Positions 5,998-45,521 of a stretch of DNA of 64,000 nucleotides are shown here, one piece after another. Below the pieces are notes generated by a model. That model was given only the letters and a program-made list of their open reading frames with translations, made no database searches and had not been told where the DNA came from. The stretch is from Paramarasmius palmivorus (taxonomy: Eukaryota; Basidiomycota; Agaricomycetes; Agaricales; Marasmiaceae), in NCBI GenBank assembly GCA_037176845.1, contig JAYKXP010000003.1, forward strand, positions 248,001 to 312,000, read 5' to 3'. How positions within the stretch are numbered: the first letter of the stretch is position 1; every line of letters starts with the position of its first letter. The position numbers were made by a program, and so were the translations under genes.

Positions 5998-6709
5998 GAT
6001 GTGCCGCCGCCTTCACGATATCTGTATTGGTCTCCGAGGAGGCTCTATTTATCATGTATGTATGTGGTGTACTTGTATCGATGGAAACCAACTTGCAATT
6101 GGTACTGTCCAGAACGATGGTAGAACGATGAATGAACGTTTTAAGTGGGCACGTTCTCCTAATCTCTGAAGTGATGGGAACGCGTGCCGATCCTGCTTTT
6201 TGGTGCGGAATAGCGGTAGAATTCAGCGGGTGTATTGTAATAACATTGAGTTCAATTGACCCTGCAGGGCCATACTTGACCACGCAACATTCAAGACAGT
6301 AAACCTTTGGAAACATACATTCAATGTTTGACTTGTTTATTAGTTTTGAAATGCAGCAGTCATCGTACAACAGCTAGCTATGAATTCTAACTAACACTAT
6401 GGAGCATTTGATACATGAATATGCTATAGGCGGGAGAGAAGGAGATTGAAAGGAATTAAAGCTATGTCACAAGAAAATCGAATAGAAGACGCAGGTACCA
6501 AAACCAAACAACAAATCGAATACGAAGATTGCACGGAGAAAGATGAGGAAGAATGATAGGTAAACATGTAAATCGCTCCACTGGAGTCCGACTCCAATCC
6601 CCAGCCCAAGTACAAGGGTTAACAAGAAATACAAGTTGGATTAATAAATCAAAGAGACGGGGAATGAAAAAAAAAAGAAACAGGTCCACCTAACCATTAA
6701 GAGTCATGA
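5998..6709. other. convergent intergenic region
   Basis: About 0.7 kb between the 3' ends of the 7TM gene (plus) and the Bem1-like gene (minus). It is A/T-rich with no supported gene and presumably carries both 3' UTRs. Confidence 0.5.
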
Positions 6710-8893: not shown

Positions 8894-9461
8894 GATGGTA
8901 AGAGAGAAAGAAGGAAAATAAAAAAGGTCGTCGCAGTCGTGAGTGAAAACAGAGATTGTAACACTTGTTATTGTCTGCAACTTTAGCCAGTCACGCTATC
9001 CCCAATTGGAAATTTGATCATATCTCTCCTCCCTCACAACCACAATCCCAGGCTTACTGCCGCTTACTGTGACACAGCCAATCTGTCTTGCTGGCGTCCA
9101 TCCCATGCAAATCCACATTGCATAGTGGAGCCGGCCCTTGTTACCCAAATCTATCACTGTACAACTTGGCTTGTTCATCATTGCCTATCCGAACAGCATT
9201 CTATGTCTCGACCCCGACCCAATGGGGGTCGCATATAATTTCACATTTTAATTTTTAGCCATTGCCAGGGTGGCCGTAATCCTGAGAGAGGCCTAAGGGC
9301 GAGGCGGGTGCGGTGCGGTGCTTGCGGCGGGCTTCCAAAAAAGGGGACTTCTTTTTGTTTGGCTGTGTCCTCGAGTACAAACAAATCCACCGAAACCTCC
9401 ACCGACCAAGTCTTCGTCCCGTAACAATAGTTGTAACCACTCTCAATCTCATCCGCTCACC
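8894..9461. promoter_or_regulatory. divergent promoter region, BEM1/NOT3
   Basis: 568 bp between the two start codons, with CCAAT-like and pyrimidine-rich stretches on the NOT3 side. No specific regulatory site can be supported. Confidence 0.4.
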
Positions 9462-19856: not shown

Positions 19857-21117
19857 CTAACCTTCCCTCTCCCTCATCTTCTTAAAGTCCTCTACCCACT
19901 TCTTTTCGTAATCGCCTTTGGACACGACTGCCACTGTCAAATGCCCATCTACCAACTCCAAGCCATCTGGCTCCTTTGCTCCTTCTTTGGCTTTGGCAGC
20001 GTTGCACAAATCCCGTAGGGACATGTTCTTGCCGACTCTCAGCAGCCGCTTCTGCTTTGTGCTCGCATAGACCACCATATTCCCGTTCACATACTTCCCA
20101 TGCTTGTCCCATGCAGGCGAAGGTACCTTTGGCGGAAACATCTCTTCTAGGTGCAAAGCAAAAGGCGTATCTTCGACGAACTCAGGGATAACGTCGTATG
20201 TCCCGTATTCTGGGTATTCGAAGTAGACGGGGATGATCAGGGTGTTATATGAAGGATCTTCGGGATCGAAATGCGGATAGTCGTCTGGCTTTGGGATAGG
20301 ATTGTTCTTCAGCAAGGGAGGTAAGATGATATTCCGCGACTAGCCACCAAGATAATCTATATCAGCCATGCCATCTCAACGGGTGGAAAACTTAGAGACT
20401 GACTCGTAATGCCGCTCTCAACATCCTCTCCTGCAGCTTCTCCTTTTCTAGTTTGTCTTGCTTTTCTCTCTCCTTCCTCTCCTTCTCCTCTTTCTTTGTC
20501 TTGGCCTTTTCAAGGAGAACCTTGATGTCACTCGCTGGGTCATGCGATAACGCGCGGGTACAGCAGTCGATAGCGTCGTCCCATCTTTCAAGCTCTATCA
20601 AAGCTTGCGCAGAACGATAGTGTCCTTTCGGTGACCTGGGGTTCACCTTGATCGCCTCGGCGCAATCACGTAGTGCAGTGCCATAGTTTTCTACCTGCTT
20701 GATGAGTACGGTCGCGAAAAATGATTCAAAATCATAATGCATACTAAGAGCCAAGTTTGCAGCAGCCCGATTGCAGTATAATGCCTCTTTCAGTGATATG
20801 TCGGGCGGGTTGACATCAATGCCTTGGGTGTAGAAGCTTATTGCCTCTCGATATCGTTTGCCTTTGAAATACTCGTTACCGCGTTCCTTGAAGTTTTGTG
20901 CGACCTCTTCCTTTCCTCAGCCAAACATATTCGAGGATCATGCTGGGAGATACACACCGTCAGGAGGACCTTCGTAAGCGAGAGATTGTAGCGCAGCAAT
21001 GGTTGGATTAGATGCTTCATCCTCAGGAAGTGACTTCATAAATAGAGGGTGGTTATCAAAGTCATCTAGCTTTGCTTGAACTGTTTGTTGGTCTATGGGC
21101 TGGGGTCCTTCGGCCAT
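19857..21117 (-). CDS. CNS1: TTC4/Cns1 Hsp90 co-chaperone (TPR protein)
   Basis: Tetratricopeptide co-chaperone that binds Hsp90/Hsp70. The start at 21117 (MAEGPQPIDQQTVQAKLDDF) leads into DNHPLFMKSLPEDE. A three-repeat TPR domain follows (NFKERGNEYFKGKRY, NYGTALRDCAEAIKVNPRSP and KGHYRSAQALIELERWDDAI). Next is a charged helix (KTKKEEKERKEREKQDK). The conserved C-terminal wheel domain ends the protein (PIPKPDDYPHFDPEDP, LIIPVYFEYPEYGTYDVIPEF, HLTVAVVSKGDYEKKW), with the stop at 19857. Order and length match the TTC4/Cns1 family. This gene marks the left border of the secreted-protein array. Confidence 0.93.
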
Positions 21118-21447
21118 ATTGAAGTGAGAACAAGAGGTGAGTAATCGCGCGACCGTGAGAAGTGACGCAAAATTTGCAGTGGATCTATCTCTTATCTATC
21201 GGTTGCTGCTTCGCTGACTTCACTTCTTCATGTAGGATGTGCTAACTCGGTGTCCAGGTATGTTCACAACAGGTTCACAAACATGCAGAACGGGTTGACA
21301 TTTCTTCAGAGATAAACCCAAAAGTCCCCTGCAGGCTCTCCACCCTCTACAGATTCATCGCTTGAACTCCGGAACGCACACGCTGAACACCAAACTACTT
21401 TCCTGTGTCTATCCTTGTCTGTGCCGTCCATCTGCTACATATGTAGT

Positions 21448-21703
21448 CTAACATGGATCGCAGGGTCCGCCGTCTGGTGGACAAATAACACAATTTGGCT
21501 CAAGAGCTGGAAGTTCCTGCGTCACGTCGCGGCAAAAGCTGCATCCGTTGGGCGAACAGCATATCGCTGATGTATCTGGGAGTCTGAAGAAACGGAAAGT
21601 CAGACGTTTTCCATGACATGGAGTCATAATCGACATACGGGGTGGGATACGCTGCTACAAAGAGCAGAGGGAGTAGAAGGCTGAACAGGCGAGGGAATTG
21701 CAT
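21448..21703 (-). CDS. type-A secreted CxxC protein, copy A1
   Basis: Small secreted cysteine-rich protein of 66 residues, function unknown. Exons 21703-21639 and 21583-21448 keep phase exactly. A signal peptide (MQFPRLFSLLLPLLFVAAYP) is followed by DTSAICCSPNGCSFC (module 1), a spacer RDVTQELPALEP, and CVICPPDGGPCDPC (module 2), then the stop. The intron sits just after the predicted signal-peptide region, as in every copy. I do not recognise the family. Disulfide bonds or metal binding through the CxxC pairs are both possible. Confidence 0.78.
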
Positions 21704-21752
21704 CTCGGACTGGAGGATTGGGTGATATCAGAAGGTGTGGGTTGATTCCTCG

Positions 21753-21761
21753 TTCTTATAT
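21753..21761 (-). promoter_or_regulatory. TATA-like element of copy A1
   Basis: ATATAAGAA on the minus strand, about 50-58 bp before the ATG. Equivalent elements occur at similar positions in copies A2, A3, A4, A6 and A8. Confidence 0.55.
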
Positions 21762-21989
21762 GGTTCTATGAGTTACTTCCAAGTTTACATATATGGTCTC
21801 TTGCGGGTTCCTTGGTGTCCTGCTGGTCAGGTCTTCCGCCTTTGACGCACTTAAACGGAACCCATCTGTGGAGTACATCTGTTGGTACGGCTCTTGGGAA
21901 TTGATAGCCCTTGAGTACATATGATAACACTCCGTATCGAGCGTTCTCGAGGTCCAATAGTCGTTAAGGTAGCTCTGCGTGCATCCTAG

Positions 21990-22269
21990 GCACTTTCCGC
22001 ATGGTGATTCGGGGGCCTTTGGGTGTCCAAATCCCGGATTCTCACAGTGTGAGCACAGTGCGTTGTCCAAGATATTCTTCACTGACTGTAACAAACATAG
22101 AAGCCTCTCTCGAGCCGCAGTAGCAGCATCTGATCTTTGCTAAGTGCTACCGAAAAGAACACATCGTAAAAACGCATCAGCGAACAATCAGATTATCCAG
22201 TTACACGGGATACGCCACTGCCTTTATCACGAGAAGAGGCAGCGGAGTTTGGAGAAGTGCCCGAAGTGC
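21990..22269 (-). pseudogene. type-B secreted protein remnant, copy B1
   Basis: The signal-peptide exon starts at 22269 (MHFGHF...) and aligns with the intact copy at 28902, but small deletions shift the frame and give TGATAA before the cleavage region. The downstream exon pieces and GTCAGTGAAGAATATCTTGG are still recognisable; the CxxC exon is degraded. Confidence 0.6.
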
Positions 22270-22567
22270 ATTGGGGATCCAGTACTTTGGCATAGATGTG
22301 TTGCGGTCGGATCGCAGCACACAAGAGTTCACACTCATTTAATTATGCAAATTCCATTCTGTTACATTCACAGGGATAGGTCCATGCTGGCAGCTGGATA
22401 GCCATTTCGTGATCTATCCGTAGGCGGAAAGTTCAACGTACGCATGACCAATGAATCGGAAGGCCATAAACCTCAAGGCTTTGGTAGCTGCGGAAACCGG
22501 ACAGGAAAGATGATTGGAACCGCCCATAACGCTTGGAATTGGGGTAATTGATGGCAACAGTGCGAAG

Positions 22568-22748
22568 GAGTTACGTTGGGCTAGGAAGTGTACTACGGTG
22601 TGTTGCGTTTCAAACGACTTCGTAGCTGTTCGTGCAGCTCACATATTCATATCCATTTCTCGGGTGTTAAAGTCAGCTAACCATGCCCATTCCAGCTTAA
22701 CGAGGTTGAATTCGACGAAAACACCTCACTCAGCTATTTACTTCAAAG
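22568..22748. repeat. duplicated intergenic segment, copy 1
   Basis: This segment (GGCTAGGAAGTGTACTACGG, then TTTCAAACGACTTCGTAGCT and ACACCTCACTCAGCTATTTA) is matched by diverged copies near 24066-24236 and 25414-25580. It shows that the duplication units include non-coding flanks. Confidence 0.7.
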
Positions 22749-22934
22749 GTTTATCTACAATTTATCTAGCAAAAGCTCGCACGTTATTCCAACAACGAAA
22801 TTTTCAGAAATACAATGAACAGGATGCCTAGACCCAAACATGACAGAAACTCCCAAATTCGATGCGTAGACCCAACGATCAGAACCCGTTTTCCCCCGTC
22901 TGTTTTGGTGTGTCTTTGCCCTCTGGGTCTTGCT

Positions 22935-23187
22935 CTAACACTTCGTGCAGGGTCTACCGTCTGGCGGGCAAATAATGCAACCCGGCTCAAAGGTTGGAAC
23001 GTCCTGCTTCACTTCGCGACATGGTTGGCAATTTGTACCGTCTGGATTGCAGCATATCGCCGAGGTATCTGGTAATCTGAAGGCACGTCAGCGAGATGTG
23101 ATGACATCCGAGTAATGACTTGACGTACGGGTTCGCTGCAACTAGGAGCAGAGGAAGAAAGAGGCAGACTGTGCGAAGAAGTTGCAT
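22935..23187 (-). CDS. type-A secreted CxxC protein, copy A2
   Basis: 66 residues, exons 23187-23129 and 23076-22935. Signal peptide MQLLRTVCLFLPLLLVAA, then LPDTSAICCNPDGTNCQPC (module 1), REVKQDVPTFEPG, and CIICPPDGRPCTKC (module 2). It is the same length as A1, and about half of the mature residues are identical, including all cysteines. No disabling change is seen, so this is one of the two best-preserved simple copies. Confidence 0.8.
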
Positions 23188-23237
23188 CTCGGACTAGGGG
23201 GCTTTGAAGTGAGCTATAGCATGGGTTTCAACATGCG

Positions 23238-23245
23238 TTCTTATA
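23238..23245 (-). promoter_or_regulatory. TATA-like element of copy A2
   Basis: TATAAGAA on the minus strand, 51-58 bp before the ATG of A2, matching the position in A1 and A4. Confidence 0.5.
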
Positions 23246-23439
23246 CGATTCTTCGAGTTGTTACTGTTGTTGCATCTGATCCGAACACTCTGATATTAGG
23301 ACAGTTGGCGCGTAGACTATGACCCACAGTTGGTAAGAGCTTTGTTTTTTCATGATGGATGATTCTCAACAGCATTTATATTTGCTACAGCGGTTGATCA
23401 TTGCTGTAAACCATGCAATCGGAGGTACGTTAATTCCAG

Positions 23440-23530
23440 ACAAAGTAAGCACGGAAATGTGCAAGATATTCTTTACTGATCTGTTGTGATCACATAGGCT
23501 TCTTGTATGCTCCCTGTGTTCGTCAAAAAG
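23440..23530 (-). pseudogene. type-B remnant in unit 2
   Basis: Only a stretch around the second exon/intron border is recognisable. The GTAAGCACGG and AAGATATTCTTTACTGATC sequence matches the same part of B1, B3 and B5. No coding potential remains. Confidence 0.4.
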
Positions 23531-24065
23531 CTCGCAAAATAACTTTGACCTCAATGACAAAACATTTAGGCTTCGAACAAAACAGGTCATGACAGAAAGG
23601 CCTGATTCAAAAAATATTTTAGAATCTTCGCCTATCTTTCCCCGTGCCCTCGTCTTCAAGACTGGGACTGCCTTCAGTTGTCAAGCAACCTGGCTCCAGA
23701 GTCGGAACGTTCTGCTTCCCTATCTGGGAAGGTTGTTACTCACACGAACAGTAATGCAATCTTTCCCGTAGACCTACCTCGCCGCTCCTAATCAGCCCTC
23801 TGCGAATAGTTGACAGCCTACTCTGGATCCCCACAAGCTCAATTGCAGTGACCCGTCACGGTGACGGGAGTAATACAGGCAGAATAAGAGTCGTGTTTGT
23901 CCATGGGCAGAAACCAGACATCGATAAGCTGGAACGCCGCGATCTCCTGGTCAGTAAGGGACTGTTTACGCAAATGAGATGAGAAAGTTGCGGCCGGTGC
24001 CGTTACTCGTGTAATTGGTAGCATGCTGACGGCAGTGAATGGAACGCATGTTGGGTCAGGGTTTA

Positions 24066-24236
24066 TACGGTGCGCTAACTTTCAAACGCTTTGTGGTTAT
24101 TCATGGTGCTCACATATTGATCGCCATCTTTCGGGTCTTATTATCAGGAAGTTGTCTTCATTTCGGCTCAACTGCAAAGAGGTTGTCAGATTCGACGAAG
24201 ACACTTCTATCAGTTATCTGTTCATCCAGAGAAAGA
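24066..24236. repeat. duplicated intergenic segment, copy 2
   Basis: Diverged copy of the 22568-22748 segment (CTTTCAAACGCTTTGTGGTT, CTCACATATTGATCGCCATC, TTCGACGAAGACACTTCTAT). Confidence 0.6.
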
Positions 24237-24376
24237 TCCCATGGTACTTTCATGACAGGATTCAGATAAAATCGAGATCCTAGCGAAGGCCCAAACATGA
24301 CGGAACTTTTGGAATTTGATGCACGAATTCGACATTCCAGAACCCCCGGGCCGCTCTCCTCCATCCGTAGTCATAT

Positions 24377-24587
24377 CTAACATGGTATGCAGGGATGACC
24401 ATTTCCTGGACAGACAACACAATCCGGCTTGAGGGTTGGGACTTCCCGCTTCTTCAAGGACCCTGGGATCCTAGAGGCATGTCAGCGAAATACGTCGAAT
24501 GTCAAGTAATACCTCGACGTACTGGATAGGATTTGCTACCACTAGGAGAAGCGGGAGAAAAAGGCTGAGTATGTGATAGAGTTGCAT
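24377..24587 (-). CDS. type-A secreted CxxC protein, copy A3, module 1 lost
   Basis: 52 residues, exons 24587-24523 and 24470-24377, open throughout. The signal peptide MQLYHILSLFLPLLLVVA and module 2 (CVVCPGNGHPCIPC) are kept. The first cysteine module is absent: exon 2 goes from IPGSL straight to KKREVPTLKPD, which carries a dibasic KKR site. This could be a functional shortened variant or an early step of decay. Confidence 0.65.
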
Positions 24588-24879
24588 CCCGTAATAAAAT
24601 AGAGGACTAGGTTGCGAATAGGTTGTGCTAGGGCGTTGGTTCAGTTTTCATTCTTATATAGTTCTCTGGGCTATCATGATCCAAGCTGACATATGACATA
24701 TGTGGCAGATCTCTTACGAGTACCTTGGTGTCCAGTTGGGTGGGGTCTCCGCCTCTGATGCATGGTTATTGGACAGACCCGGACTGACTCGGATGTGACT
24801 TCTTGAGTACAGATGATAACTACGTATAGAACGGCTTTGAGATCCACTCGCACTCTACAAAGTTCCGTATGCACACCTT

Positions 24880-25172
24880 TACGTGCATTCTACTGGTGAC
24901 GATCGGGCGCACAAATCGGGAGTCACGTTCCTGAAACTACACAGAGTGGGTACAGTATGTTGTCCAAGATATCGTTTACTGACCGTATCAGACACAGAAG
25001 CCTCAGGCCGCAGTGATGCCACTGCGGTGTTTGGCCCTTGCCGAGCGCTAATGTTGAAGGGAACACATCGTGATTCGTGAATACGGCGCATCAGCAAACC
25101 AGCAGATTAAGATCATCCATTTACACGGGATATGCCACTGCATTGATCGCGGGAAGAGGCATCTGGGGTGCA
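24880..25172 (-). pseudogene. type-B secreted protein remnant, copy B3
   Basis: Starts at 25172 with ATGCACCCCAGATGCCTCTT. An internal deletion removes most of the hydrophobic core of the signal peptide relative to B5 at 28902. The following intron and exon sequence (AACACATCGT, AAGATATCGTTTACTGACC) is recognisable but the cysteine exon is not intact. Confidence 0.5.
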
Positions 25173-25413
25173 TTCCGAATCCAGTACTCTGATATAGATG
25201 TTGCAGTCTGATTGCAGTATGCAAGAGTTTGCACCCCCATGCTCACGCAAATTTCACTATGTTCAAGCACGGGTCTAAGGGAATACTCACTGGCAGAACA
25301 TACGCAATACTAACGAGTCGGAACGCCATCGATTTCGAGCTCTCGCATCTGCAGAAACGGTCAGGAAAGGAAATTGAGGTTGCCTATAAGGTAATTGGCG
25401 GGACGTTGGGCTA

Positions 25414-25580
25414 GGAAGTATGTTACGGTGGATCGCGTCTCAAACGACTTCGTAGCTATATCCACAGCCCTCTCTCGGGGTTTAGTATAGTAGCGGCTAG
25501 CCATGCTCATTTCAGCTCGAGGTTGTCTAATTCGACCAAAACACCTCATTGAGTCATTCGGCTATTTACACCAAAAATTT
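25414..25580. repeat. duplicated intergenic segment, copy 3
   Basis: Closest relative of the 22568 segment (GGCTAGGAAGTATGTTACGG, CTCAAACGACTTCGTAGCTA, ACCAAAACACCTCATTGAGT). Confidence 0.7.
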
Positions 25581-25751
25581 ATCTTGAGAGAGCGAGTAAA
25601 TTGCTTTCAATTCAATAAGTGATCAAACATCCAGAGGTAAACGCAACCAGAATGTCCAGACCGAAACACGATGAACAAGTTGATGCATAAGCCCAACATT
25701 TCCAAGCCCCATTTCCTTCATCTTTCCTAATGTGTATCTTCCACCTCCGAA

Positions 25752-26241
25752 TCTATACTATACGAAATTTAGAATGGAAGACAAACGGCTTAGACAAAGA
25801 ACAGCCGAGAAAATTCTAGAACTCGGGAATTATCTTTTGTCCGTTACAAGATCAGCAAGTTATCAGCAAACCGCTCGAAGCTTCGAGAACCTTCAACGTG
25901 TAACGGGTATTGATGAATGGTATTGAAGCAACCGAAGACTACGGTCTGCAGTCTTGGGATGGACATCAATGGGTATAGTACTAAACGAGCTAGCAATGAA
26001 AGTACTGATAAACAACAGGGTGTTCTTTTGATTGGTACATGTAAATTCTTTGCTTTAAGAGTGCTCTAAGATCACTCAGTGATACGTACTTACGATTATC
26101 GCAGGTTAGTTTGAATATGATTACACAATGGCATGCAAAGTGCATACAGGTGAGTATTAGCAGCTTTAACAACTGTGTAATATTGACTTCAAGTTCCTGG
26201 ATTTGTATAACTGCCGTGCGAAGCACGGGTTAGCGTTCTAG
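25752..26241 (+). mobile_element. non-autonomous Helitron, 490 bp
   Basis: The 5' end reads TCTATACTATACG immediately after an A (25751). The 3' end has a 6-bp-stem hairpin CCGTGC-GAA-GCACGG (26214-26228), then nine bases, then CTAG (26238-26241), followed by T. A 5' TC, a subterminal hairpin, CTAG and insertion between A and T without target duplication are the defining features of Helitrons. No RepHel protein is encoded. The 3' end abuts the coding end of copy A4, and sequence related to the missing end of A4 (CCTAATGTGTATCTTCCACC) lies just left of the 5' end, so the element is inserted in A4's second cysteine module. Confidence 0.8.
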
Positions 26242-26246
26242 TACTA

Positions 26247-26452
26247 TTAACAGCGTATATACAGCCCAGGTCGAGAGTTGGAACGTGCTTCCCTTCGTGG
26301 AAAACAGTCACCGGCTGGACTGCAGCATATCGCTGGGGCACTGGAGGCATGTGAGATGTGTTGAGTATCGAAAATGACTTCACGCACGGGACAGGGTTTG
26401 CTGCGACTAGGAGCAGAGAAAGCCCAAGACTAAGCATGCGAAGGAGTTGCAT
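26247..26452 (-). pseudogene. type-A copy A4, frameshifted and split by a Helitron
   Basis: The signal exon (26452-26388, MQLLRMLSLGLSLLLVAA) and the start of exon 2 (from 26340, APAICCSPAGDC) are recognisable. A frameshift inside the spacer then takes the frame to a stop at 26247. In the alternative frame the spacer KHVPTLDLGC is still readable. The element at 25752-26241 interrupts the remainder of module 2. This copy is dead or drastically altered. Confidence 0.7.
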
Positions 26453-26500
26453 CTCGGACTAAAGAATCGAGTTGAGCTAGAGCGTGCGGGGTATATCGTG

Positions 26501-26510
26501 TTCTTATATG
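26501..26510 (-). promoter_or_regulatory. TATA-like element of copy A4
   Basis: CATATAAGAA on the minus strand, 49-58 bp before the A4 ATG. Confidence 0.5.
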
Positions 26511-27967
26511 ATTCTCCGGGCCAGATGTGACAGCCTGAATAATAGCTTGGGAGTCCTGGACCTGAAATCCGACCAGTTGGATTTGTGACCCGCTGTTGGT
26601 GAGAAAATTGTTCTCTGAGATTTATTTCTCGTGGTTGATACACATCGATGTGCTATCAGGCTTTATTAGTACGGCGAGGGTTGAACGTTGAACGTTGAGA
26701 GCGCTGGCGAACCTGCGAGCACATTGTGAAAGCACGCGGTGCGTCGCCGCTTCGTGCCACGAGAAGAAGCATGCAGCTCATGTAATGAAATGCACATCCT
26801 GTAAGTATATATCGCCGCTTTTACAGGTACAATAGTTGAAGTCATTGTCTTGGAACTATTGATGGTGGCTGCCAAGTTTCCGAGTCACTGGGCGAAGATT
26901 TCAATCAAAAAAATCTCGTCAAGGAAGGAAGGACCGCTTACACATCAAACCTTTCACTTTCGATCCTGTCCAATTCGCTTGCTTGCTCGACATGTCTGAC
27001 GAAAGACGGAGGTTGAAACGTTGATCAAGAGGAGGTCAGGTAAGGACTCAGGCCCAGGAATCAGAATGGCTTGAGGCTGTTTGTTTTCCGTGGGAACGAT
27101 CGAGTCTCACAGTCACGTACTCATATACATAGCCTAGCCTGGCTTTACCCACTTGACAAGCTCAAGAGATTTTACTGGCACTCACCGATCCTCACAACAC
27201 TAAACGGGCTTGACACTACACCGCCCAAAGTGTCTCTTTTGGTCAATTGGTCAAAATCTCCAAGACGGGTAGCTTTACGATTTCCTCGCATGACATAGTG
27301 GTACAACCTCCAGCTATCCACAATCACCCTGTTGACGTTGTCGACATGAGGCACAATAGACTCTGGAGATAACGGCCATTCTTATATTTGGGCAGAACAA
27401 GGGCAGAAAAGGCGTCTTGAGTTGCAATACCAAGGTACGCTTTACTCTCTAGACTTTCACCTGGATGAGTTGTAATTGACCTTTGATCTAGATTGTACCA
27501 CGTATTGATGCAAGCAAGATCGTGGCATGTCAAATCCTGCGACCACATTCTTCCAGAATCCCGAAGTTTTTCTCCTTATCTGGGCAAACCTTTGTACTTG
27601 AATACGATATCCGAATGCAGACCAACTCCACTACCTCTAAACACGAGTGCACATTGCAGAGTTCCGTAACTGGTGCAATCCATGTTTCGTGATCTATAGG
27701 CGGAAAGCTGCCACTCGATATCACCGTGTTAGACCGCCGCGAACCTCCTAGTCAGTAGGGCAGATTTAAGGCTAGGACAATCGAAACGGGACGACGGGCT
27801 ATGGAATGTACACACTTTCATGAAGGTGGTAGGTAGTAGCAAGCGCAACATCTGGAAGTGCGTCGACGCATGGTAGTGCAGTCCCATAGATGGTACGGTT
27901 CAAATCCGGTGACACGTTCCGCCATGAGCGTGGTTGTCCCTTCGGCCCTTTCCCTCCAACTCCTGCG
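26511..27967. other. unit-4 flank, no supported gene
   Basis: About 1.4 kb upstream of A4. Open frames are short and unrelated to known families. I could not find a type-B relative here, unlike in units 1, 3, 5 and 6. Confidence 0.4.
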
Positions 27968-28284
27968 CTAGCATAACTTGCATTTCGCGCCATTACAAAT
28001 AATGCAGTTAGGCTTGGGGGGAAGAATGTCCTGCTTGGCTTCGCGACAAGGTATACAGGTGCCGTTCCCGCAGATCATACAGTTCGAATCGCGTTCCTGG
28101 ATCGATACAGGTGAATACGAATTGCAAAGGGGAATCGACGTAGTGCTAACGAACCTCTAGAGTAGCTGGGATTCTGAGCGGACGTCAGTTGTGTGCTGAT
28201 AATATACAGTTCGACATACCCAATAGGAGTTGCCACTACCAAGAGAAGAGGGAGCAAAAGGCTGAGTGTGTGAAGAAATTGTAT
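27968..28284 (-). pseudogene. type-A copy A5, start codon changed to ATA
   Basis: Three exons (28284-28220, 28173-28155, 28096-27968) give an intact 70-residue frame with an intact signal core (SLLLPLLLVVATP), module 1 CMICGNGTCIPC, spacer REAKQDILPPKPN, and module 2 CIICNGAKCKLC. The codon that is ATG in the other copies is ATA here (TCCGAGATACAATT against CCGAGATGCAA). The TATA element upstream has also drifted to TATGTG. Reading frame and splice sites are otherwise clean. The copy is either recently inactivated or started from a non-AUG codon; the next in-frame candidate is a TTG within the signal core. Confidence 0.65.
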
Positions 28285-28603
28285 CTCGGATTAGAGGTCT
28301 CAGTTGTGCTAGGGTGTTGTACGATTTCCATTCTTATGTGATGTTCCAGGTTACTAATCAAGTTGGCATATCTGGTAGATCTTTTACGGGTTCCTTGTGG
28401 CCAAATCGCGGGTTTTGTGCTTTTCACACATGGTTACTTGGACCAATTTATGAGATATACTTCTGATATTAGGGTGCTTGAGTATATATGGCTACAGAGC
28501 CTCGAGGTCCACGCAGCCGAGCTAAGGAGGCACCATACACCCATCGTAATAGCGGTTTACGTGCATCCCATACGCTTCCTTGGCGCATGTGTACACCTGA
28601 CTA

Positions 28604-28902
28604 TTAGCACCCGGCAGAACACCCAGTGGGTGTGCAAACCACACAACGTCTCTGAATTTATATAGAGTAAGCACAGTAGGTTGCCCAAGATATTCTTCGC
28701 TTACCGTTACAACTAAAGAGGCGGCTCTCAGGTTGATGCTATTCGAGTCATTTGGCTCTTTCAGAGCGCTAACAAGGGAACACATCGTCAGCACAGATCA
28801 GCGAGCGATTAAATTGTCATCTTACACGGGATGCGCCACGGCCTTGGTCATGAGGAAGGGCAAAAGCAGGCAGCTCAGTACGGAGAGGTGCGTGAAGTGC
28901 AT
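28604..28902 (-). CDS. type-B secreted cysteine protein, copy B5
   Basis: 62 residues in three exons (28902-28826, 28768-28705, 28651-28604), all phases consistent. Signal peptide MHFTHLSVLSCLLLPFLM with TKAVAHPV at its end; middle ALKEPNDSNSINLRAASLVV; last exon RRCVVCTPTGCSAGC, then stop. It has a single cysteine module resembling module 2 of the type-A proteins, so the two types are probably related. It precedes A5 on the same strand. Function unknown. Confidence 0.65.
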
Positions 28903-29535
28903 TTCGGAGGAGTCAGCGTTCAATGTTCAACGTGCAGGGCGGTGGATATGCTAGGGACGAGATGGGATATACAAGAATCTGCATTCCCCGTACTTATCCA
29001 TATTTCATTGTATTGCTTCTGTATGGGTGAGGTATACGGAGCATCTCATCGTGATGGTAGCTGGGGGTTGGCGGTTCGACTTGATGAGGAGCGGAAAGGG
29101 TATTCAGGAACACCTTTTTTCATCAATCGATGGCACCCGCTGGACAATAACTTGAAAAGGTCGGAGATGGCTTCCCGCATTTCGACTGTGTGTTTTCCAT
29201 TATTGCTTTCTGCTATGTATTTATTGAACCCTGTTGTAACGAAAGCACTGAGTATGATGAATTTACTGTCATGATTCAATCAAGCTAGAATCTAGAATCA
29301 ATCCTTCCTTTCCTTCTTCAGCCTTCTTTACCGAAACTTTCACGTTCAGCGCTTCAAAATATTAATGCTATTCTTGGTCTCTATCTCACCGTTCAGTCCG
29401 GGCACATCCAAGTACCGCAATGGTTGTCAGCTGCTTGTAAGCCTGAGACACATGCTTGCTTTTCTACACCTACTACAGAACTACAGAACCTTTTCTACCG
29501 TTGTCTTAGAATTCGAGCTCTTTCTCAATCAGACG

Positions 29536-29852
29536 CTAACACGGTTGGCAGTGTCCGTCGGATGTGCAAAATATGCACTCAGGTTCGAGTACCGGGACGT
29601 CTTGGACTTCACGGCAGCTCGTACAGATACCGTTTTCGCAGATTTGACATCGTCCCTATGTTAACAGAAGTTGAACGTGAGGCGAGTGAGAGGATTGAGG
29701 TATTGACGTGCCTCAAGGATATCTGGAAGTCTATGGGGATGTTTGGTTAGTTGTGTTGTACAAGCATGGAGTAACATCTCGACGTACGCGATGGGATTTG
29801 CCACTACCAAGAGGAGAGGGAGCAAAATGCTGAATACGCGGAGCAGTTGCAT
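29536..29852 (-). CDS. type-A secreted CxxC protein, copy A6
   Basis: 67 residues, exons 29852-29788, 29730-29712 (19 nt) and 29655-29536. Signal peptide MQLLRVFSILLPLLLVVANP, then LPDILE, GRCQICENGICTSC (module 1), spacer REVQDVPVLEPE, and CIFCTSDGHCQPC (module 2). Intron 2 runs GCACGT...CATAG, so it is a GC-AG intron; its position matches the canonical GT intron of A5, A7 and A8. The frame is otherwise undamaged. Confidence 0.75.
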
Positions 29853-30192
29853 CTCGGACTAGAGTGTGCTGCATGTCAGTTCAATGCAGACTCTTATATG
29901 ATATTTTCTAGTGGCGACGTCCATGATACACGTTCCTTGATGTTCAGTTGGCTGGGCTTGCCGCTCCACAGCCCATTGTCGAGCAAATTCATTTCTGGGA
30001 ACAACATGCGGACATGCTTGATGCAGGCAGTAATAGAAGGCGGCAGTGCCGGACATAGGAGAATCGCATAAAACAGCCTTCATGATACGGACATGCAGTT
30101 AAGGTTCTGAGATGGGTACGATGGATATACCCACTGCCCAAGTTAGCTTCATGAGCATCATTCTTCCTTAGATGTCTGTCATAATCAGGGCA

Positions 30193-30524
30193 TCAGCGGC
30201 ACCGCTTGGTATTCGAAGAGCATTGGCCTGATGGTGTACAGACTACACAGTCGGAGCCAGGTCCCTGAATTTGAGCAAAAATGAGCACGGGATGTAGTCT
30301 AAGATATTCTGGGAATTACGGACTTCTTCAACCACTGTCAGTGTTTCACTGACACTGGTCGCGGCCTTTGGTTCCTGCAGCGCACTGACGAAGAGCATCC
30401 ATCGTGAGCACATCAAAAGGAAGCCATTCAGAGGGTCATCTACACACACTGGATGCGCCGCCACCTGGATCATCAGGAGATATGAAATCAAGCAGCCCAG
30501 CACGGGAAGGCGAATAAGATACAT
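30193..30524 (-). CDS. type-B secreted cysteine protein, copy B6
   Basis: 69 residues in three exons (30524-30448, 30384-30324, 30264-30193). Signal peptide MYLIRLPVLGCLISYLLMIQ followed by VAAHPV, the middle exon ALQEPKAATSVSETLTVVEE, and the last exon GPGSDCVVCTPSGQC, then SSNTKRCR. It aligns with B5 at the signal exon, the ALxEP motif and CVVCTP. The frame is also open upstream to 30581 in exon 1, but the ATG at 30524 matches the start of B5. A TATATATA stretch lies about 70 bp upstream. It precedes A6. Confidence 0.6.
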
Positions 30525-31387: not shown

Positions 31388-32085
31388 CTACTCCTGCGCA
31401 ACAACGGGGAACTCGAAGACAACATCCTTCCCTGTGAGACGACGGTAGACGGAGGAGAACGAGTCGAGTTTGTACTCGAGAACGTTGGCGTCCTTGGAGT
31501 CGAGGAATCTAGACAGATCATAAGTCATCAATTGCGATAATGATGAATGGGAACATACACTCTCAAGAGCTTCGATCCGTCAACAGAAACCCTCGTCCGC
31601 TTTCCAACAATCTCTGTGGGGAAAACCAAATCCTCAAGAATCTTCTCGTGGACGTTGGTGAGAGTCCTGGAACGGGGTCTCTTTTGCTTGACACGGGAGT
31701 GCTTGGAGGGTTTGCGGAGCATGCGGCGCTGAGCGACAAAAACGACATGTCGGTCTGAGAATTTCTTCTCGAGTTCGCGGGTCAGCCTGTAAGATACGAT
31801 ACGATCAATAATCAAACAATTCGGACGATCGCTATCGTCGCACCTTTGCTGAACCTTGTGGAAAGCCTTCAATTGAGGAACGGGAACGAAAATGACAATG
31901 GCCTTCTTTCCTCCACGGACATCGACCTCTCGGGCAGCAGAAATTTGCAAAGGCCGTAACTCAGCCTTGAGCTCTGGAACGTTGTTTTCGAGGTCAACCA
32001 ATGCCTGAGCAACGCTTGTCTCGGTTTCATCGGGAGGAGTGTTGGGTGCATTGGCGGTACGAAGGATTTTGTTGTTGGCCGACAT
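31388..32085 (-). CDS. RPS7: 40S ribosomal protein S7 (eS7)
   Basis: Structural protein of the small ribosomal subunit. Exons 32085-31844, 31786-31559 and 31508-31388 give 196 residues. Family segments: [113 protein letters not shown]. Length and order are typical. It borders the right side of the secreted-protein array. Confidence 0.96.
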
Positions 32086-32942
32086 CGTGTCTTGTGTTCC
32101 TATCGAAAGTACATCCAAAGTCAGTCGCTTGAATCCACCAGTGAAATGGGTATCGTTTGACGCAGCATTACAGTATCTGCCGTCTCGAGGACTGTAGAAG
32201 CGTAATAAGGATAGAAATGAACTCACCGGGCCTCTTGACGGCGACGATGCTTGATTTTTTGTTGGGGTCGCTCGATGGCGTTGACTCGCAGGCTGTGACA
32301 AACAGTCGTGGGACACTATTCCTCGAGTTGGGCTGTCACACTCTGTCACGCTCACGGCGTCACCTAACCTTTACTTCGTCAGTAACCACGTCTGGTCTCC
32401 TCAGGGAAGAAATGAGAAAAATTCACCTTTTCTGGTCTTGAGTCGTCCCATCACTCTTTGTATGTTCTCGATCCTCACACTGCTCAGGCCCGTCGGTGTT
32501 TTGGGCACAACGGTGAGTCTTTCCAAATTCCGATACTCTGTCAGACTGTCTGACAGGTTCGTTTTCAGTCAACACGATCGTGATCTCAGAGAAGACTATC
32601 CCGGTCACATCTTTCCCGAGAGGAACTCTCGCATTACACTCGTGTCGTCTCTTCCGCATGCTCATGTTGATGATCATCCCGCTGCTGCCTGAGGATATCC
32701 GTTATGGTGATGATTACCTCAATGGACTTCAATCGAATTCAATCCTTTGCTCTATATACATCAATGAACTATCTCATTCGACCGGACGCTTACAAGAACC
32801 GTGCGCCACTTGATGTATACGACACGCCTTCCCGTTCGAAATCAAACCATATCTTGACAGTATGTGGATATGGGGTGTAAATTAATCATCCTGGGACGTT
32901 GAAAAGGGAGACATCTTCATCTTTGAAACCCCAGACTCAGAT
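32086..32942. other. RPS7 upstream region
   Basis: Divergent region between RPS7 and copy A7. It probably holds the RPS7 5' UTR with an intron. A plus-strand frame at about 32459-32692 has splice-like sites but no recognisable product. Confidence 0.4.
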
Positions 32943-33262
32943 ATGCATCCCCTTCGTATTATCAGCTTCGTTCTACCATTCGTGCTGATAGCAGCAAAAC
33001 CCATGTATGTCGTCTTGTTCTTTGCAAGTAGTGTCGTTCGCTAACTTACGTTTTCTTGCTAGTCCTGCAAACCAAGAGGTCTGTCAGTATCTGTTTCGAT
33101 GGGTACTATTCTTTAACAACCTGCTGATAGATTCAGACGCGCTGCCAAATATGTGATGCACATGGCCATTGCACAGAATGCCGAGATATACAGGATATCA
33201 CCCTTCTGAAACGCGACTCTAACTGCACCGTTTGCAATAATGGGAAGTGCTACTCATGTTAA
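32943..33262 (+). CDS. dispersed type-A secreted CxxC protein, copy A7
   Basis: About 70 residues, three exons (32943-33004, 33063-33078, 33131-33262), on the opposite strand to the array. Signal peptide MHPLRIISFVLPFVLIAAKP, then PANQE and TRCQICDAHGHCTEC (module 1), spacer RDIQDITLLKRDSN with a dibasic KR, and CTVCNNGKCYSC (module 2). The last exon could instead begin at 33137 (loss of two residues). Intron positions equal those of A5, A6 and A8. Confidence 0.75.
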
Positions 33263-37620: not shown

Positions 37621-40600
37621 TTACAGACACTGCGAGTAATACGTATTCTGGACTGTACACTTGTACGGAGATTCACAAACTAGGCAGAAGCTTGTCAGAC
37701 CGCAGTTTAACCACACGTCACCAAAATAAGAACATACCTGTCGGTCCAGTCCATCCAAGTCCACCGCACTGAGCCCAATGCGCTGCTGTTCCCGAAGATG
37801 GCGGGTTAGTCGGTACAGTACCCCCGGTTGTCGTCGTTGGCGGATTCTGGGGTGCAGTTCCACCAAAGTCGGTAGGAGAAAGTGTCCTCGATGCTCCTTT
37901 CTGCAAGGTCAGGTTGATGGCGGTACCGCGGTACCGCACCCTGGCGAATGTTCCTGATGTACTCTTCAAATTGGCTGACGTCAGGACGCCATTCGACCAG
38001 GCAATATCAACTGTAAAGCCACCGCGGGCTCGGAAGCCAGTCACTCGTCCTTCCTTCCACGAAGACGGGATAGCAGGAAGAAGGTGGATTTCACCATTGT
38101 GACTCTGGAGAATCATCTCCGCGACCGCCATCGCGCCACCTTGTAGCACCGCTCAGCATCGGGAGACAGGTTCAAAGAAACCGCACCGAGTAACGTACCG
38201 AAGTTTCCGTCGATCTGGAAGACGAGATTGATTGACCAAAGGTTGTCGTATGAGTAATTCTTGAGGAGTCTCTGCATGTAGTAGTAAGCCTTCTCGCCAT
38301 CCAGCAACCTAGCAAAACAGTTGGCTCTCCAAGCGGTTGGCCACCCTAGCACATGCGTCAGTCGATGCCCAGGCAAACAAAGTATGTCCTAACCATTCTC
38401 TGAATCGCCTCTCAGCTGAAGCGTCGTCTTGGCAGCATTGACGAGGTTCGTGTTGAACCGAGGATCGATTTGAGCTCCAGGGAATAGTGGATAAAGTTGA
38501 CTGATGTGATTGAACGCCCTGTGTAGAAAATCATGAGCCATACCTAGTTTGATCCGCCAATGGTCTAAAGCTTACCCGGTATTAATATCCTTCGCCCACT
38601 CTTGAATCTGGCCTTGTGAACCAACACGGATGGGGATAAGGCGGTCCATTGTCGTTGTGAGGTTATTGGCAAAGTCACTATCGATGCCGAGGTCTCGTGC
38701 AATACCTGCTGTGTGGTTGAAGAGATCTCGAAGCAAGCTAGGATAACAAAGGATGAAGCCTTGAGAAAAACTATCCAGAATGTAATGGACGAGCGGAGGC
38801 TCACGCGCTATCGATGGTCGGGCCTTTAAAAAGTATAAGCCGAGGATCAAGAATTAGCATAGGAACACGTACCGTATGTCAAAGAGGTACCACCTGGAAG
38901 TCTATTTTCCGGGCTCATACTTGGACTCGTAACGAGATAACGCTGAGATTCCACGCTCTGCGGGGTTTCTACCAAAAAGTCCAAGTAGAATTCCGCTGCA
39001 CCTTTCATCATCGGATACCCCACGTTCTTCACCCAGTCGGTATTGCTTGGATCGTAAGCATAGTGTTCCCAAACGTGTTGCATTAACCAAGCAGAGCCAG
39101 CTGGCCACATTCCATAGACGGCACCATCGATTGGCGCAGAATCACGCCAGAGGTTTGTGTTATGGTGGGCGACCCAGCCGCGTTTAATGTTGTAGTGGTC
39201 TGAAGCGAGCTGTTTGCCTCGTTCGGCCAACTCACCAAGCATGTTCCAGAGCGGATTGAGTGTTTCTGCAACATTGAGTGGTTCGGCGAGCCACGAGTTC
39301 ATCTATAATTCCATTGAGAACCTCAGCATAGAAATGGATCCTCGGGTCACACCTGTTGGTTAATGTTAATCGTGTATTTGCTGAACGAAGTCAAGTTAGC
39401 TTCAGAGTCCTAAAACAAGAAATATAAACTCTACCTTCCCCATGCTGGATCGGTACCCTCATTCCAGATACCTTGCAGGTTGGCTGGCTCCGTTTTCCGA
39501 GATGATGCAATCGAGAGATATCGTCCATATTGGGCGTAAAGAGCAAATACGTCCTGATCAGCATCAACACCTCCAGGGAAACTCTTTCGAGTGTTGGTGG
39601 TTTGATATGTATACTGCGACGGTGTTCCTGTATTCACCCATATCGTCAAACATCGTGAAGACCATGCAGAAGTTGACCAAACGCACCCAACGAAATGCTA
39701 ACCCTTCCGAATAACGCCTGGTAATCATTCAAATGGTTCGTCCTCAATTGATCCCATGTCTTGCCCCGAACCGCAGACAAAGTCGAGGAAACCTTCGAGT
39801 CGGGATTTGCTGACAGATTGTCGTACCGAACGAAGTTGGTGTCAATTGCAATGACGACCAAGGCTTCGTCTGCACCAGAAACCACTAACGTGCTGCCGGA
39901 AGCCCCAACAGAACCGCCTTTTGTAGTAATCTCTGCTCGGACGACGTACTTGATAGCACCAGCAAGACCGTTCTTCGACTGCCCAGCCGCAGTCATCGTG
40001 AGAAGGTTATTGGAGGCAGAGTAGGACTTTGATAGATGTCGTTAATCAATGTGTTTAGACTTCGAATAAAGGATCTTACAGGACTGGCCATTGGTGTTTT
40101 GAAAGAAGCAGTGAACCCAACCTTGCCCGCCTGATTGGCCGTAACCCGGTACACAATAACATTATCAGGGTAACTCGCAAAGGCTTGACGAGTGAATTGA
40201 ACGCCGTTGGAGTTGTAGGTAGTGCTTGCAATAGCCGTGGTGAAGTCAAGGCTGTGGTTCAGGTTGCTTACACCAGAGTTGCCAAAGGCGAGATCCATGC
40301 TTCCCGCAGCTGAGTGTCGACTATGAGCAAAAGGTTGACAACAAATTGTGAAAGCATACTTTGGAACATTTGTTGAGCGGGAGGGATACCCATGCAAGAC
40401 GCGTCGACTCGTGATTGAGCATCAGAAAAACTTCCTTGCCTGAAACAACACCAGTCATTACTTGCAAACCGGAGAAATGTTGACGAGAACTCACCAGATC
40501 AGGTTACGTATACCAGGCAGAGCAGCGGGGCAATTCTTGTTCGCTGGATTGTTGAGTGATCCTGACCAAATGTGGTCCTTTCGGAAGATGTTCGGCCTGA

Positions 40601-42785: not shown

Positions 42786-44570
42786 CTACCACGACACATC
42801 TCCATCATCCCAAGTATCCTCGTTCCTCATTACTCTGAAGCCCACTTCTTCTAAATACCGCTTTGCCTCCTCCACGTTGTCCTGGAATACGATATCCTTC
42901 AACACGGTGAGTCGGTTGTTTGGTCCTCCGAAATTTGTTCCGAGTTTCCTTCTTTCCAACTCTGCCCATACACGTCGCAACAACATCACATCATGCCCGG
43001 AACACTTGTTGAAGGCGGTCAGAATCCAGTATACCATCCACTGCGACATCTCAATAATCTCTTCCGACCTCATATACATCCCATAAATTTCTTCCAAACT
43101 CCCTAAATCCCACGCTTGCCCTTCACGACCGTTCTCCGCATGACCATGTCTCGCGAAGCCCAGGAACAAGGCCCTGAAAACTGCGTAAGTTGGGGCATAC
43201 TTCAGGTACTCTCCCTTTTCTGACACGCTTGCGCCCGGCTCTATGTTATCAGCTTGGAGCATATCCATGAACGTCTGCAATGCCGACTGCAAGTCTCCAT
43301 GATACGCCATGCTCTGGATGGTGGCAGTATATGTTACTTCGTTGGGTATCATCGCAGGATCAATGTATATCCCTTCATCCTTCAACATCTCTTCTATCTG
43401 TACCTCTACGTCAGCCCTGGCCCCAGCCAAATTGGCACGCAGAACCTTATAGATTTGTCTGACAACATTCAGCTCCCCCAGGACACTGTATCCCCAGATA
43501 CACGTATTCGCGCCGTCAAGACCCAACTCGAGGCCCTTGATCCGCATTTGCAGAAGCGTGTTGCGCATTCCATACAACTGGCGTACACCAATCCAGAAGT
43601 TTAACATGGACAAGTGCGTGATACGGTCGGGAGTGAGGCCCACGTTTGTGGTCAGGGTAGAGGCGCGTTTAACTGCGCGGCCATAGAGTGTTTTGGCGGC
43701 AATGGAGAGAAGGGTGTTGTAGGTGTATAAATCCGGAATGGTTTCGGTTGCCTGGGGGTAGGGAGCCGCCGAATTGGCGTAGTCGCCACTGAAGGAAGTG
43801 CCTGGAGATAACCCACTCATCATATCGTCGTAGGTGTTCAAGGCAAGACGCCAGTCCTGGGCTCGGGCTTTCCGCCACCCAGTTCCTGCATGCGAGATCA
43901 ACGCGTTCCATTGCCAGGTCTGCAGACGGCCCCCAGACGCGTGTAGCGTCGACATGACAGAGAGAATACGCAAGAACTGCGAGCGAGTTTTGGGCCGCTG
44001 AGTTGCAAGGAGACGGAGAAGGCGATGTAAATGGGAATATGGGATTTTGGGTTCATTAGATTTTTGGGGGTGAGGATGTGGTAGATTTACGAGGACTCCG
44101 TACGCGTCGTACGCCTTTTTGTGGTCTTGCGTGCTAGCAATGATGTGGAGGAGGTGATAGTATAATGATTCTTTCTCTGTTTCGGGATCCTGTTCTTTGT
44201 CGTAGAAAGGGTCGGACTTGACAAACTTCTTCCCATATTTGATCTTTCCACCATAAAGAGAAGGAATTGGAAGTCGGTAACGAGACTTCCCCGTGACGAA
44301 AGGAGGATGTGCAAGAGTCTGGTGGGTGTCGTGTTCGATGGTGTCTTGTTGTATTTTTTCGGGATGGGGTTGTTGTCTTTCGATACCCTGACTCAAAGTG
44401 CCACCACATTTCCGTATACCACCGCTTTTTACATGGTTTTGGTGAGGAGGTAACTCTTTGACTCTTCCGACGCCGCCGACACTGTACTTGCGAATTCTCC
44501 ATGAAATCCGTAACGGTAGGCGAATGCGTTGGACTTGGGTAATCGAGCCCAGCGAAAACGCTCTGAGCAT
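42786..44570 (-). CDS. PPR-like mitochondrial protein
   Basis: A single long exon of about 594 codons. The ATG at 44570 (MLRAFSLGSITQVQRIRLPL) gives a basic presequence without acidic residues, consistent with mitochondrial import. Helical repeats resembling pentatricopeptide units follow (DLYTYNTLLSIAAKTLYGRA, NEVTYTATIQSMAYHGDLQS, TYAVFRALFLGFARHG). Such proteins usually bind organellar RNA. The exact target cannot be inferred. A TTG three bases upstream is in frame but is not needed. It is rare here in having no evident intron. Confidence 0.75.
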   Translation of the reverse strand: MLRAFSLGSITQVQRIRLPLRISWRIRKYSVGGVGRVKELPPHQNHVKSGGIRKCGGTLSQGIERQQPHPEKIQQDTIEHDTHQTLAHPPFVTGKSRYRLPIPSLYGGKIKYGKKFVKSDPFYDKEQDPETEKESLYYHLLHIIASTQDHKKAYDAYGVLVNLPHPHPQKSNEPKIPYSHLHRLLRLLATQRPKTRSQFLRILSVMSTLHASGGRLQTWQWNALISHAGTGWRKARAQDWRLALNTYDDMMSGLSPGTSFSGDYANSAAPYPQATETIPDLYTYNTLLSIAAKTLYGRAVKRASTLTTNVGLTPDRITHLSMLNFWIGVRQLYGMRNTLLQMRIKGLELGLDGANTCIWGYSVLGELNVVRQIYKVLRANLAGARADVEVQIEEMLKDEGIYIDPAMIPNEVTYTATIQSMAYHGDLQSALQTFMDMLQADNIEPGASVSEKGEYLKYAPTYAVFRALFLGFARHGHAENGREGQAWDLGSLEEIYGMYMRSEEIIEMSQWMVYWILTAFNKCSGHDVMLLRRVWAELERRKLGTNFGGPNNRLTVLKDIVFQDNVEEAKRYLEEVGFRVMRNEDTWDDGDVSW

Positions 44571-45521
44571 CAATAGAGAAAGATGCAGTCATCCTACAAC
44601 CACGAAGCATGCTTCAGCACAATTTTCAACTCGCGACTATTGTGACAACTCACCGCGACTTGCACCCGAAATGAAAAGTGTCCCTCCGAGCGGACAGTGC
44701 TTTGTAGTTAACGGTTTATCAGGTGCAAGCTACGAGCATAAACAACGCGCTGAGCTCGTCGTTAGCGTCAGCGACGTCGAGGCTTCTCGACGAATGGAGC
44801 GGTGAGAGAACGAGTTCAGAAAGGTATTTCGTTCACACGCGGGACCTGGGAGCGAATGATAGGACACGGAATCATAAACCAATCCAGTTGCGACTTTCCT
44901 CCTTGTATTGAGTGTTCAGGAAACAGGGAAGTTCTACCTAGCCTTTTTACACCGTCTCTGACAGACCTGCAGCATTGGAGAGTTGAGACATTTGTCGCCA
45001 AAATTCTCGCCGACTGAGTCAGTGAAGATTGTTCAATGCATCGCATGCATCACACTTTATATAACTCAGCAAATGGCTCCCGTATGTGAAGAGTTGCTTG
45101 CATAGACCAAATTGATCTACGAACCCATTCGAATTCTGGAATCTAGATCTTACTTGCTAAGCATACGTCGAGCATATGCATGCCATCAAGAAACCTATTC
45201 CCTCGCAACACGGATAGCAGGTAGCTTGTGCACGTCCGGAGTTTGTCAAACCGTCTGCACAGACTCACATCCCGCGATCACTGGAAACAGCGCTCAGATC
45301 TCAGTACTCAGTCCTGTGTATTCTACGACGATATCAGATGATCAAGCCACCGAAATCTAAGAATAACGGAAAGCAAGCTAAACATAACGATTAACATTAA
45401 GATGATCTCAAGCCTTGGATCAGCCGGTACAATCGATAGCACTGTAAGTAGTACACCCATCTCTCGCCCATTTATACCATCAACATCTCCGGACAGTGAG
45501 TGGCCGTTTTTATATTCCTAG
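44571..45521. other. intergenic, PPR gene to copy A8
   Basis: No gene supported. A GCGCTCAGATCTCAGTACTC motif occurs at 45290-45309. Confidence 0.4.

Follow-up and report, generated by a model that had tools for sequence, protein, structure and literature searches.

A clustered family of small, secreted-looking proteins built on a single C-terminal four-cysteine module in Paramarasmius palmivorus

In a stretch of 64,000 nucleotides of the Paramarasmius palmivorus genome (positions 248001-312000 of contig JAYKXP010000003.1, here C3; hereafter the window), an array of tiny genes for cysteine-rich mini-proteins lies between positions 21448 and 30524. We spliced each C3 copy by hand and searched the 68.3 Mb genome for relatives. 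Genes with one cysteine module share exon layout and intron phases with those that have two, and the family unit is therefore a single C-terminal four-cysteine loop with a glycine; the type-B units of the array and two clusters on other contigs (C21 and C6) belong to the same family. We favour, at about an even chance, the explanation that these genes encode secreted preproproteins, many of them trimmed by a Kex2-type protease, which would release small disulfide-stapled hairpin peptides acting outside the cell. An earlier note on the window had presented the array as an undescribed family of secreted mini-proteins with two modules each; no convincing database relative turned up in our searches, but the two-module definition proved too narrow.

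Gene architecture and the cysteine module

The models total 19 genes at three loci, eight on C3 (A1, A2, A3, A5, A6, B5, D1 and D2), nine on C21 (E0 to E8) and two on C6 (F1 and F2), and the modelled proteins are 52-89 residues long with 4-9 cysteines. A hydrophobic N-terminal stretch could be recognised by eye in all models of a 17-gene set (A5 without its ATG, F1 without part of the cleavage region), and in all 17 the first intron follows this signal-peptide-like part in phase 2, the E1-E6 models having been picked for good splice sites and the family phases. A second intron, in phase 0, lies beside the first module in each of the eight three-exon models, and the 25 introns of the set measure 46-58 nucleotides. 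E0 and a two-intron model of E8 also fit these phases, which were the only ones examined by the script; E8 is compatible with a one-intron model too. In the models of E3-E6 (minus strand of the C21 region), F1 and F2 the first intron is of the GC-AG type with a common donor, GCAAGT, retained through duplication. Hand splicing thus bore out the repeats, the signal-peptide-like N-termini (by eye) and the phase-2 intron of the earlier note; in A5, A6, D1 and D2 it added a further intron, in phase 0.

Two kinds of module make up a hand-compiled list of 25, from which decayed units and the unit B6 were excluded. The alpha module reads C-x2-C-x(4-6)-C-x2-C (n = 17, one ending in C-x3-C) and has a hydrophobic residue before its second cysteine in 17 of 17 cases, while the beta module reads CC-x(4-6)-C-x2-C (n = 8), to which F1 and F2 add one further terminal cysteine. 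A glycine stands in the central loop of all 25, and the final C-x2-C is present in 24 of them. The models of the beta genes on C21 and C6 have no second intron, and the same holds for A1 and A2, whose first module is beta.

Thirteen of the 19 modelled genes carry one module (A3, B5, the nine on C21 and the two on C6), and two-module forms were seen on C3 only. The two modules of the form C-x2-C...C-x2-C or CC...C-x2-C that had been described before do occur, in six patterns ending at a stop codon, but not in these 13. In the two-module proteins the residues that follow module 1 (CRE, CRD, CKE) resemble the ends of E3 and E5 (CRK, CRE), which suggests, though it does not prove, that the two-module form had a one-module gene as its starting point.

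Copies in the window

The intact-looking two-module genes are five: A1 (21448-21703, minus strand; exons 21639-21703 and 21448-21583; 66 residues), A2 (22935-23187, minus; exons 23129-23187 and 22935-23076; 66 residues), A6 (29536-29852, minus; exons 29788-29852, 29712-29730 and 29536-29655; 67 residues; GC donor at intron 2), and the dispersed three-exon genes D1 (32943-33262, plus; 69 residues) and D2 (45522-45842, minus; 70 residues). The A1 intron is GT-AG, 55 nucleotides long and in phase 2, and joins a protein with a CC-type first and a CxxC-type second module. A sixth two-module copy, A5 (27968-28284, minus), has three exons and introns in phases 2 and 0, with ATA in place of ATG, while A3 (24377-24587, minus; exons 24523-24587 and 24377-24470; 52 residues) encodes one module. 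Micro-exons are found in A6 (29712-29730, 19 nucleotides), A5 (28155-28173, 19), D2 (45706-45724, 19) and D1 (33063-33078, 16).

Type-B units are interleaved with the A units and share their exon layout. The intact-looking B5 (28604-28902, minus; exons 28826-28902, 28705-28768 and 28604-28651; 62 residues) carries a single module immediately after RR, with intron phases (2, 0) as in A5, A6, D1 and D2. The status of B6 (30193-30524, minus) is uncertain: it has a start codon and a signal peptide together with a weak intron-2 donor and an altered module. Decay is evident in other copies. A4 (26247-26452, minus) retains the signal peptide with its modules broken, and a second-exon relic of A type (23677-23733, minus; 57 nucleotides, 65% to A2, in the repeat family labelled D2) has no recognisable module. 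B1 (21990-22271, minus) and B3 (24925-25172, minus), both with approximate limits and within repeat families D3 and D5, are decayed type-B units, B1 with an early stop inside the signal peptide. The six A units had been taken to encode two-module mini-proteins, which stands for A1, A2 and A6 but not for A3, A4 or the ATA copy A5; nor does the cluster end in an A unit at 30524, as A6 ends at 29852 and 30524 is the start codon of B6.

A raw scan of upstream sequences, uncorrected for chance, placed TATAAG 38-71 nucleotides before the ATG of A1, A2, A3, A6 and D2 (57 in A1) and CATAAG at the corresponding position of A5, while none of the scanned promoter motifs was present in D1 and B5. Among the C21 and C6 genes of the 17-gene set, raw counts gave TATAAA, TTTAAA or TTTTAA 25-84 nucleotides upstream in nine of nine.

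Related clusters on C21 and C6

Five protein queries from the window were run against the fungus's own genome. D2, A6, D1 and B5 found no genomic match outside the window (B5 recovered its own copy alone), and A2 gave two weak matches on C21, corresponding to E3 and E4 (E 0.002 and 0.01). In the region C21:303001-313000 seven genes lie on the same strand, and all of them begin with a signal-peptide-like sequence and carry a single module at the C-terminus or close to it. E8 and E0, one on either side, were recognised by reading the C21 sequence, not by search, which makes nine genes within ~15 kb. The E4 query matched contig C6 (E 0.03), where F1 and F2 lie in tandem units of about 4.2 kb. Queries with E7, E1, F2, E5 and E6 yielded no additional locus apart from one weak C5 match to E7 (C5:959069; E 0.07, 31% identity, a frame of 365 residues with one stop), and a loosened one-module pattern found no further module in the 10 kb on each side of the C6 genes. 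E0, E2, E3 and E8 were not among the queries and the genome-wide counts are lower bounds; the size of the family is itself a lower bound, because exon-by-exon searches are weak for such short parts.

The C6 region (L033, C6:980001-990000) also contains a tandem repeat at its positions 1294-4113 and 5588-8384 (90% over 2.85 kb), with a third, shorter copy at 8472-9270 (77-78%). This repeat encodes other secreted-looking proteins, with the N-terminus MRLSATLTLLAIAAATYAAPQ followed by KRKNVDRPDPANL, which adjoin F1 and F2; three such open reading frames had no Pfam match at E 0.01.

Chance controls and selection

The window contains six instances of the pattern of two modules plus a stop codon, which was absent from 200 dinucleotide-preserving shuffles and from 200 kb of C3 flanks. 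The strict pattern of one module plus a stop occurs eight times, in seven family members and in one chance string at 21204 (plus strand) that by eye lacks the family layout; its shuffle mean was 0.055 per shuffle (maximum 2), and it was not found in the 200 kb of C3 flanks. This pattern recovers four of the seven genes in the C21 region (L032) and neither of the two on C6. When loosened, it gave 13 matches in the C3 flanks, 12 of which were judged by eye from their context. The thirteenth, a perfect alpha module at position 5370 of L017 (C3:203370, plus), was rejected as chance, since it falls in a different frame of an RRM-like gene and cannot be fitted with a family splice model. Since chance modules occur, a lone module is not evidence, and the signal peptide and intron layout are needed as well.

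Whole-gene Nei-Gojobori estimates of nonsynonymous (dN) and synonymous (dS) divergence gave dN < dS in all 11 pairs compared; in two of them, A6/D1 and A2/A6, dS was saturated. Values of dN and dS were 0.27 and 0.77 for A1/A2, 0.37 and 0.89 for E4/E6, and 0.03 and 0.10 for F1/F2, the first 20 residues of the last pair differing by one nonsynonymous and no synonymous change. These ratios suggest purifying selection, on average; the diversifying selection that had been expected between copies was not seen as an average. Among the six two-module genes the mean pairwise identity was 55% over the first 20 alignment columns, 45% over the rest and 33% over the rest without the shared cysteines, so that the mature parts do diverge more than the signal peptides as claimed before, but mildly rather than "much more". 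In the one-module proteins the linkers vary while the module is kept.

Dibasic sites and predicted structure

A KR or RR lies no more than 14 residues before the last module in nine of 17 genes (A3, D1, D2, B5, E3, E4, E5, E6 and E7). Shuffling the linkers gave a mean of 1.5 genes with [KR]R and reached nine in none of 5000 trials, a figure that overstates the independent evidence because related members share some of the sites by descent. Lysine and arginine are likewise concentrated in ten one-module genes (E1-E7, F2, B5 and A3; the count leaves out F1, E0 and E8), at 34 of 140 residues in this stretch before the module; over the remaining linker the count is 16 of 249. In E0 and E8 the module is immediately preceded by a lone R, which leaves the overall count of genes with a nearby dibasic site at nine of 19. 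Between the modules, KR is present in D1 and D2 only, two of the six two-module genes. The dibasic sites before the last module, which the earlier note does not mention, shift our interpretation towards processed peptides.

AlphaFold2 was given the mature exon of D2 (43 residues) together with six sequences from the window. The model (mean predicted local distance difference test score, pLDDT, 64.9) has strands at 6-8/13-16 and 33-36/39-42, one pair per module, and a linker at 21-29 with pLDDT below 50 that contains the KR. Such a model lends weak support to a picture of two small hairpins on a string.

Homology searches and known systems

None of the 19 models matched a Pfam family at E ≤ 0.001, and 12 of them searched against NCBIfam gave no convincing match. 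We treated as chance an NCBIfam row for a chryseobasin precursor (E 0.017, one of the 12) and the weak Pfam rows PF10588 (E 0.22 and 0.009), PF23667 (0.76) and FeoC (0.091), together with those of E8 to MF_alpha_N (0.0078), Peptidase_M35 (0.01) and Meg (0.026). Against PDB sequences there were chance-level matches only (E 0.15 and 0.59; none in a second search), and Rfam models at the gathering score matched nothing in the window. Queries of 7 and 12 sequences, which did not include E0, E8, F1 and F2, drew 182 and 424 word-sharing candidates from a collection of 5.8 billion proteins, none at E 0.1 or better. As a control, the single-exon PPR protein of the window recovered 56 proteins, its own included, among the 7996 candidates sharing most words; judged by their names, the named ones were from Agaricomycetes apart from one Calocera, with Moniliophthora roreri first after the protein itself (61% identity, 99% covered) and then Marasmius species (40-44%). 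Agarics are therefore covered by the collection, and tiny genes may be unannotated there. The accessible text of the papers retrieved in literature searches held no description of the family.

The closest published parallel comes from the KEX2-processed repeat proteins (KEPs) of fungi, Agaricomycetes included, whose functions, according to the portions of these papers available to us, are largely unknown (PMC6339444, PMC9769878). The likeness lies in an N-terminus that by eye looks like a signal peptide, putative short core peptides and, in about half of our family, Kex2-like dibasic sites. KEPs as there described, however, have repeated cores with Kex2 sites between them, whereas 13 of our 19 genes have a single core, and two cores separated by KR are confined to D1 and D2, where the two are not alike. 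Internal repeats are in no case near-identical (the two modules differ from each other in all six two-module genes), and sites between them occur in two of six. Most members thus lack the recurring cores and intervening Kex2 sites that define KEPs, and the family may therefore resemble KEP products in its action and yet fall outside the class. The Agaricomycete KEP paper does not use the words "cysteine" or "disulfide" in the main text at hand (PMC9769878).

Likeness to the small secreted cysteine-rich proteins, effector-like orphans of fungi, is broader: fewer than 100 residues, a signal-peptide-like N-terminus, many cysteines, clustering and no relative in the databases consulted. A loose definition of that class (short, cysteine-rich, no known domain, secretion by eye) covers our genes, which are set apart by a fixed module of four cysteines and a glycine that sits at the C-terminus or close to it, by constant intron phases and, in about half of the members, by Kex2-like sites ahead of the module. 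Hydrophobins are secreted and have eight cysteines with two CC pairs. The two-module forms also have eight module cysteines, but at most one CC, while F1 and F2 have two CC but five cysteines; we rejected a hydrophobin identity, as no protein has both eight cysteines and two CC pairs and none matched a Pfam hydrophobin. Fungal metallothioneins, which have no signal peptide and contain CxC motifs, were likewise rejected, there being no CxC in any model and signal-peptide-like N-termini instead.

Genomic setting

The array is flanked by a CNS1/TTC4-type gene (TPR and Wheel domains, 19857-20916) and a ribosomal protein S7 gene (31528-32370). Elsewhere in the window lies a glycoside hydrolase family 95 gene (37718-39302, minus; the Pfam match covers 38847-39302), and the terminal part of the adjoining open reading frame at 37718-38152 resembles, by eye, a cellulose-binding tail. 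A ribosomal protein L3 gene (46797-47498) lies near the PPR gene (42786-44588), both on the minus strand, and the two domains are combined in two database proteins, from Favolaschia (P0024) and Antrodiella (P0040), hinting at a conserved neighbourhood or at merged gene models.

Discussion

In the route that we favour, signal peptidase would remove the N-terminus, and a kexin (Kex2-type) protease could cut about half of the members at the KR or RR that lies a short way ahead of the last module. This would yield a C-terminal peptide of roughly 12-25 residues, closed by two disulfides and most likely folded as a stapled beta-hairpin that turns at a glycine. New members arise through local duplication, and copies decay; on C3 the addition of a second module would have produced two hairpins on a flexible linker, whose KR in D1 and D2 would permit the hairpins to separate. 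Because of the clustering, secretion and decay, we consider action on other organisms outside the hypha, whether in antagonism or in host interaction, the most likely role of the peptides, and self-signalling the next. More tentatively, and well short of an even chance, the family may represent an undescribed Agaricomycete class: single-core, Kex2-released, disulfide-stapled hairpins 12-25 residues long whose genes lie in tandem clusters, with two interchangeable cysteine frameworks, CxxC...CxxC and CC...CxxC, and a derived tandem-hairpin form that Kex2 could split in some copies, serving as a peptide arsenal or a signal set.

Several points weigh against this route. In ten of the 19 members (A1, A2, A5, A6, E0, E1, E2, E8, F1 and F2) the 14 residues before the last module contain neither KR nor RR, and Kex2 release therefore cannot be general. 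The agreement of intron phases is partly one of choice, because the C21 models were selected for the family phases and E1-E6 had two to five splice models each, some in other phases. Both structural models are weak (mean pLDDT 64.9 and 58.0), and that of A2, the lower of the two, shows clear three-residue hairpin strands in module 1 only. Constraint is moderate in E6/F2, the most relaxed pair (dN 0.24, dS 0.34). Clustering, secretion and decay are the sole arguments for an outward role, and the CxxC pairs could bind metal.

Somewhat unlikely, in our judgement, is that the proteins act whole and uncleaved, as small secreted cysteine-rich apoplastic effectors or antagonistic proteins in which the basic residues serve charge only. 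The ten members without a nearby dibasic site are in its favour, as are the four of six two-module proteins without KR between the modules, and the nearest named relative in the PPR control is from M. roreri, which the text available to us presents as a cacao pathogen (PMC10468315). The enrichment of [KR]R before the last module counts against this reading, as do one-module linkers that vary beside a conserved module.

A Kex2-processed peptide signal of the fungus's own, hormone- or pheromone-like, is less probable still and would be a surprise. The prepro layout with a single C-terminal core would suit it, Kex2-processed peptides of largely unknown function are on record in Agaricomycetes in the portions of the literature available to us (PMC9769878, PMC6339444), and the N-terminus of E8 has a below-threshold match to that of the alpha mating-factor precursor (E 0.0078; 16.5 bits where the cut-off is 22), which may reflect the signal peptide only. 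Basidiomycete sex pheromones, however, are of the a-type only, as far as the available text of one source goes (PMC6339444). A scan of 20 of the window's 41 listed open reading frames, eight of which had no match of any kind, revealed no recognisable receptor gene, and repeated duplication and decay better fit an outward role.

We regard secreted metal-binding peptides, of metallothionein or zinc-knuckle type, as very improbable. Paired CxxC motifs can hold zinc or copper, and one of 12 proteins had a weak profile match touching an Fe-S region (PF10588, E 0.009). A signal peptide, on the other hand, would place the thiols in an oxidising space, CC-type modules alter the spacing of the cysteines and keep their number, no metallothionein model matched, and CxC is found in no protein. 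That these are no genes at all but a decaying repeat with chance open frames is hardly credible: A4, B1 and B3 are relics, A5 has no ATG, and lone module-like strings do arise by chance (at 21204 of the window and in L017), but none of 200 shuffles yielded even one two-module pattern, intron phases agree, dN is below dS and the family occupies three separate loci.

The family offers a testable path by which a precursor would give rise to a peptide, in a fungus for which the closest named relative in our control search is a member of Moniliophthora, the genus of the cacao pathogens. The family's genes are tiny, with micro-exons of 16-19 nucleotides and GC-AG introns, and so are easily missed by annotation; such families may therefore be common but unseen in mushroom genomes. 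The models supply a rule by which they may be sought: a signal peptide, a phase-2 intron, a phase-0 intron or none, and a C-terminal four-cysteine module with glycine followed by the stop codon.

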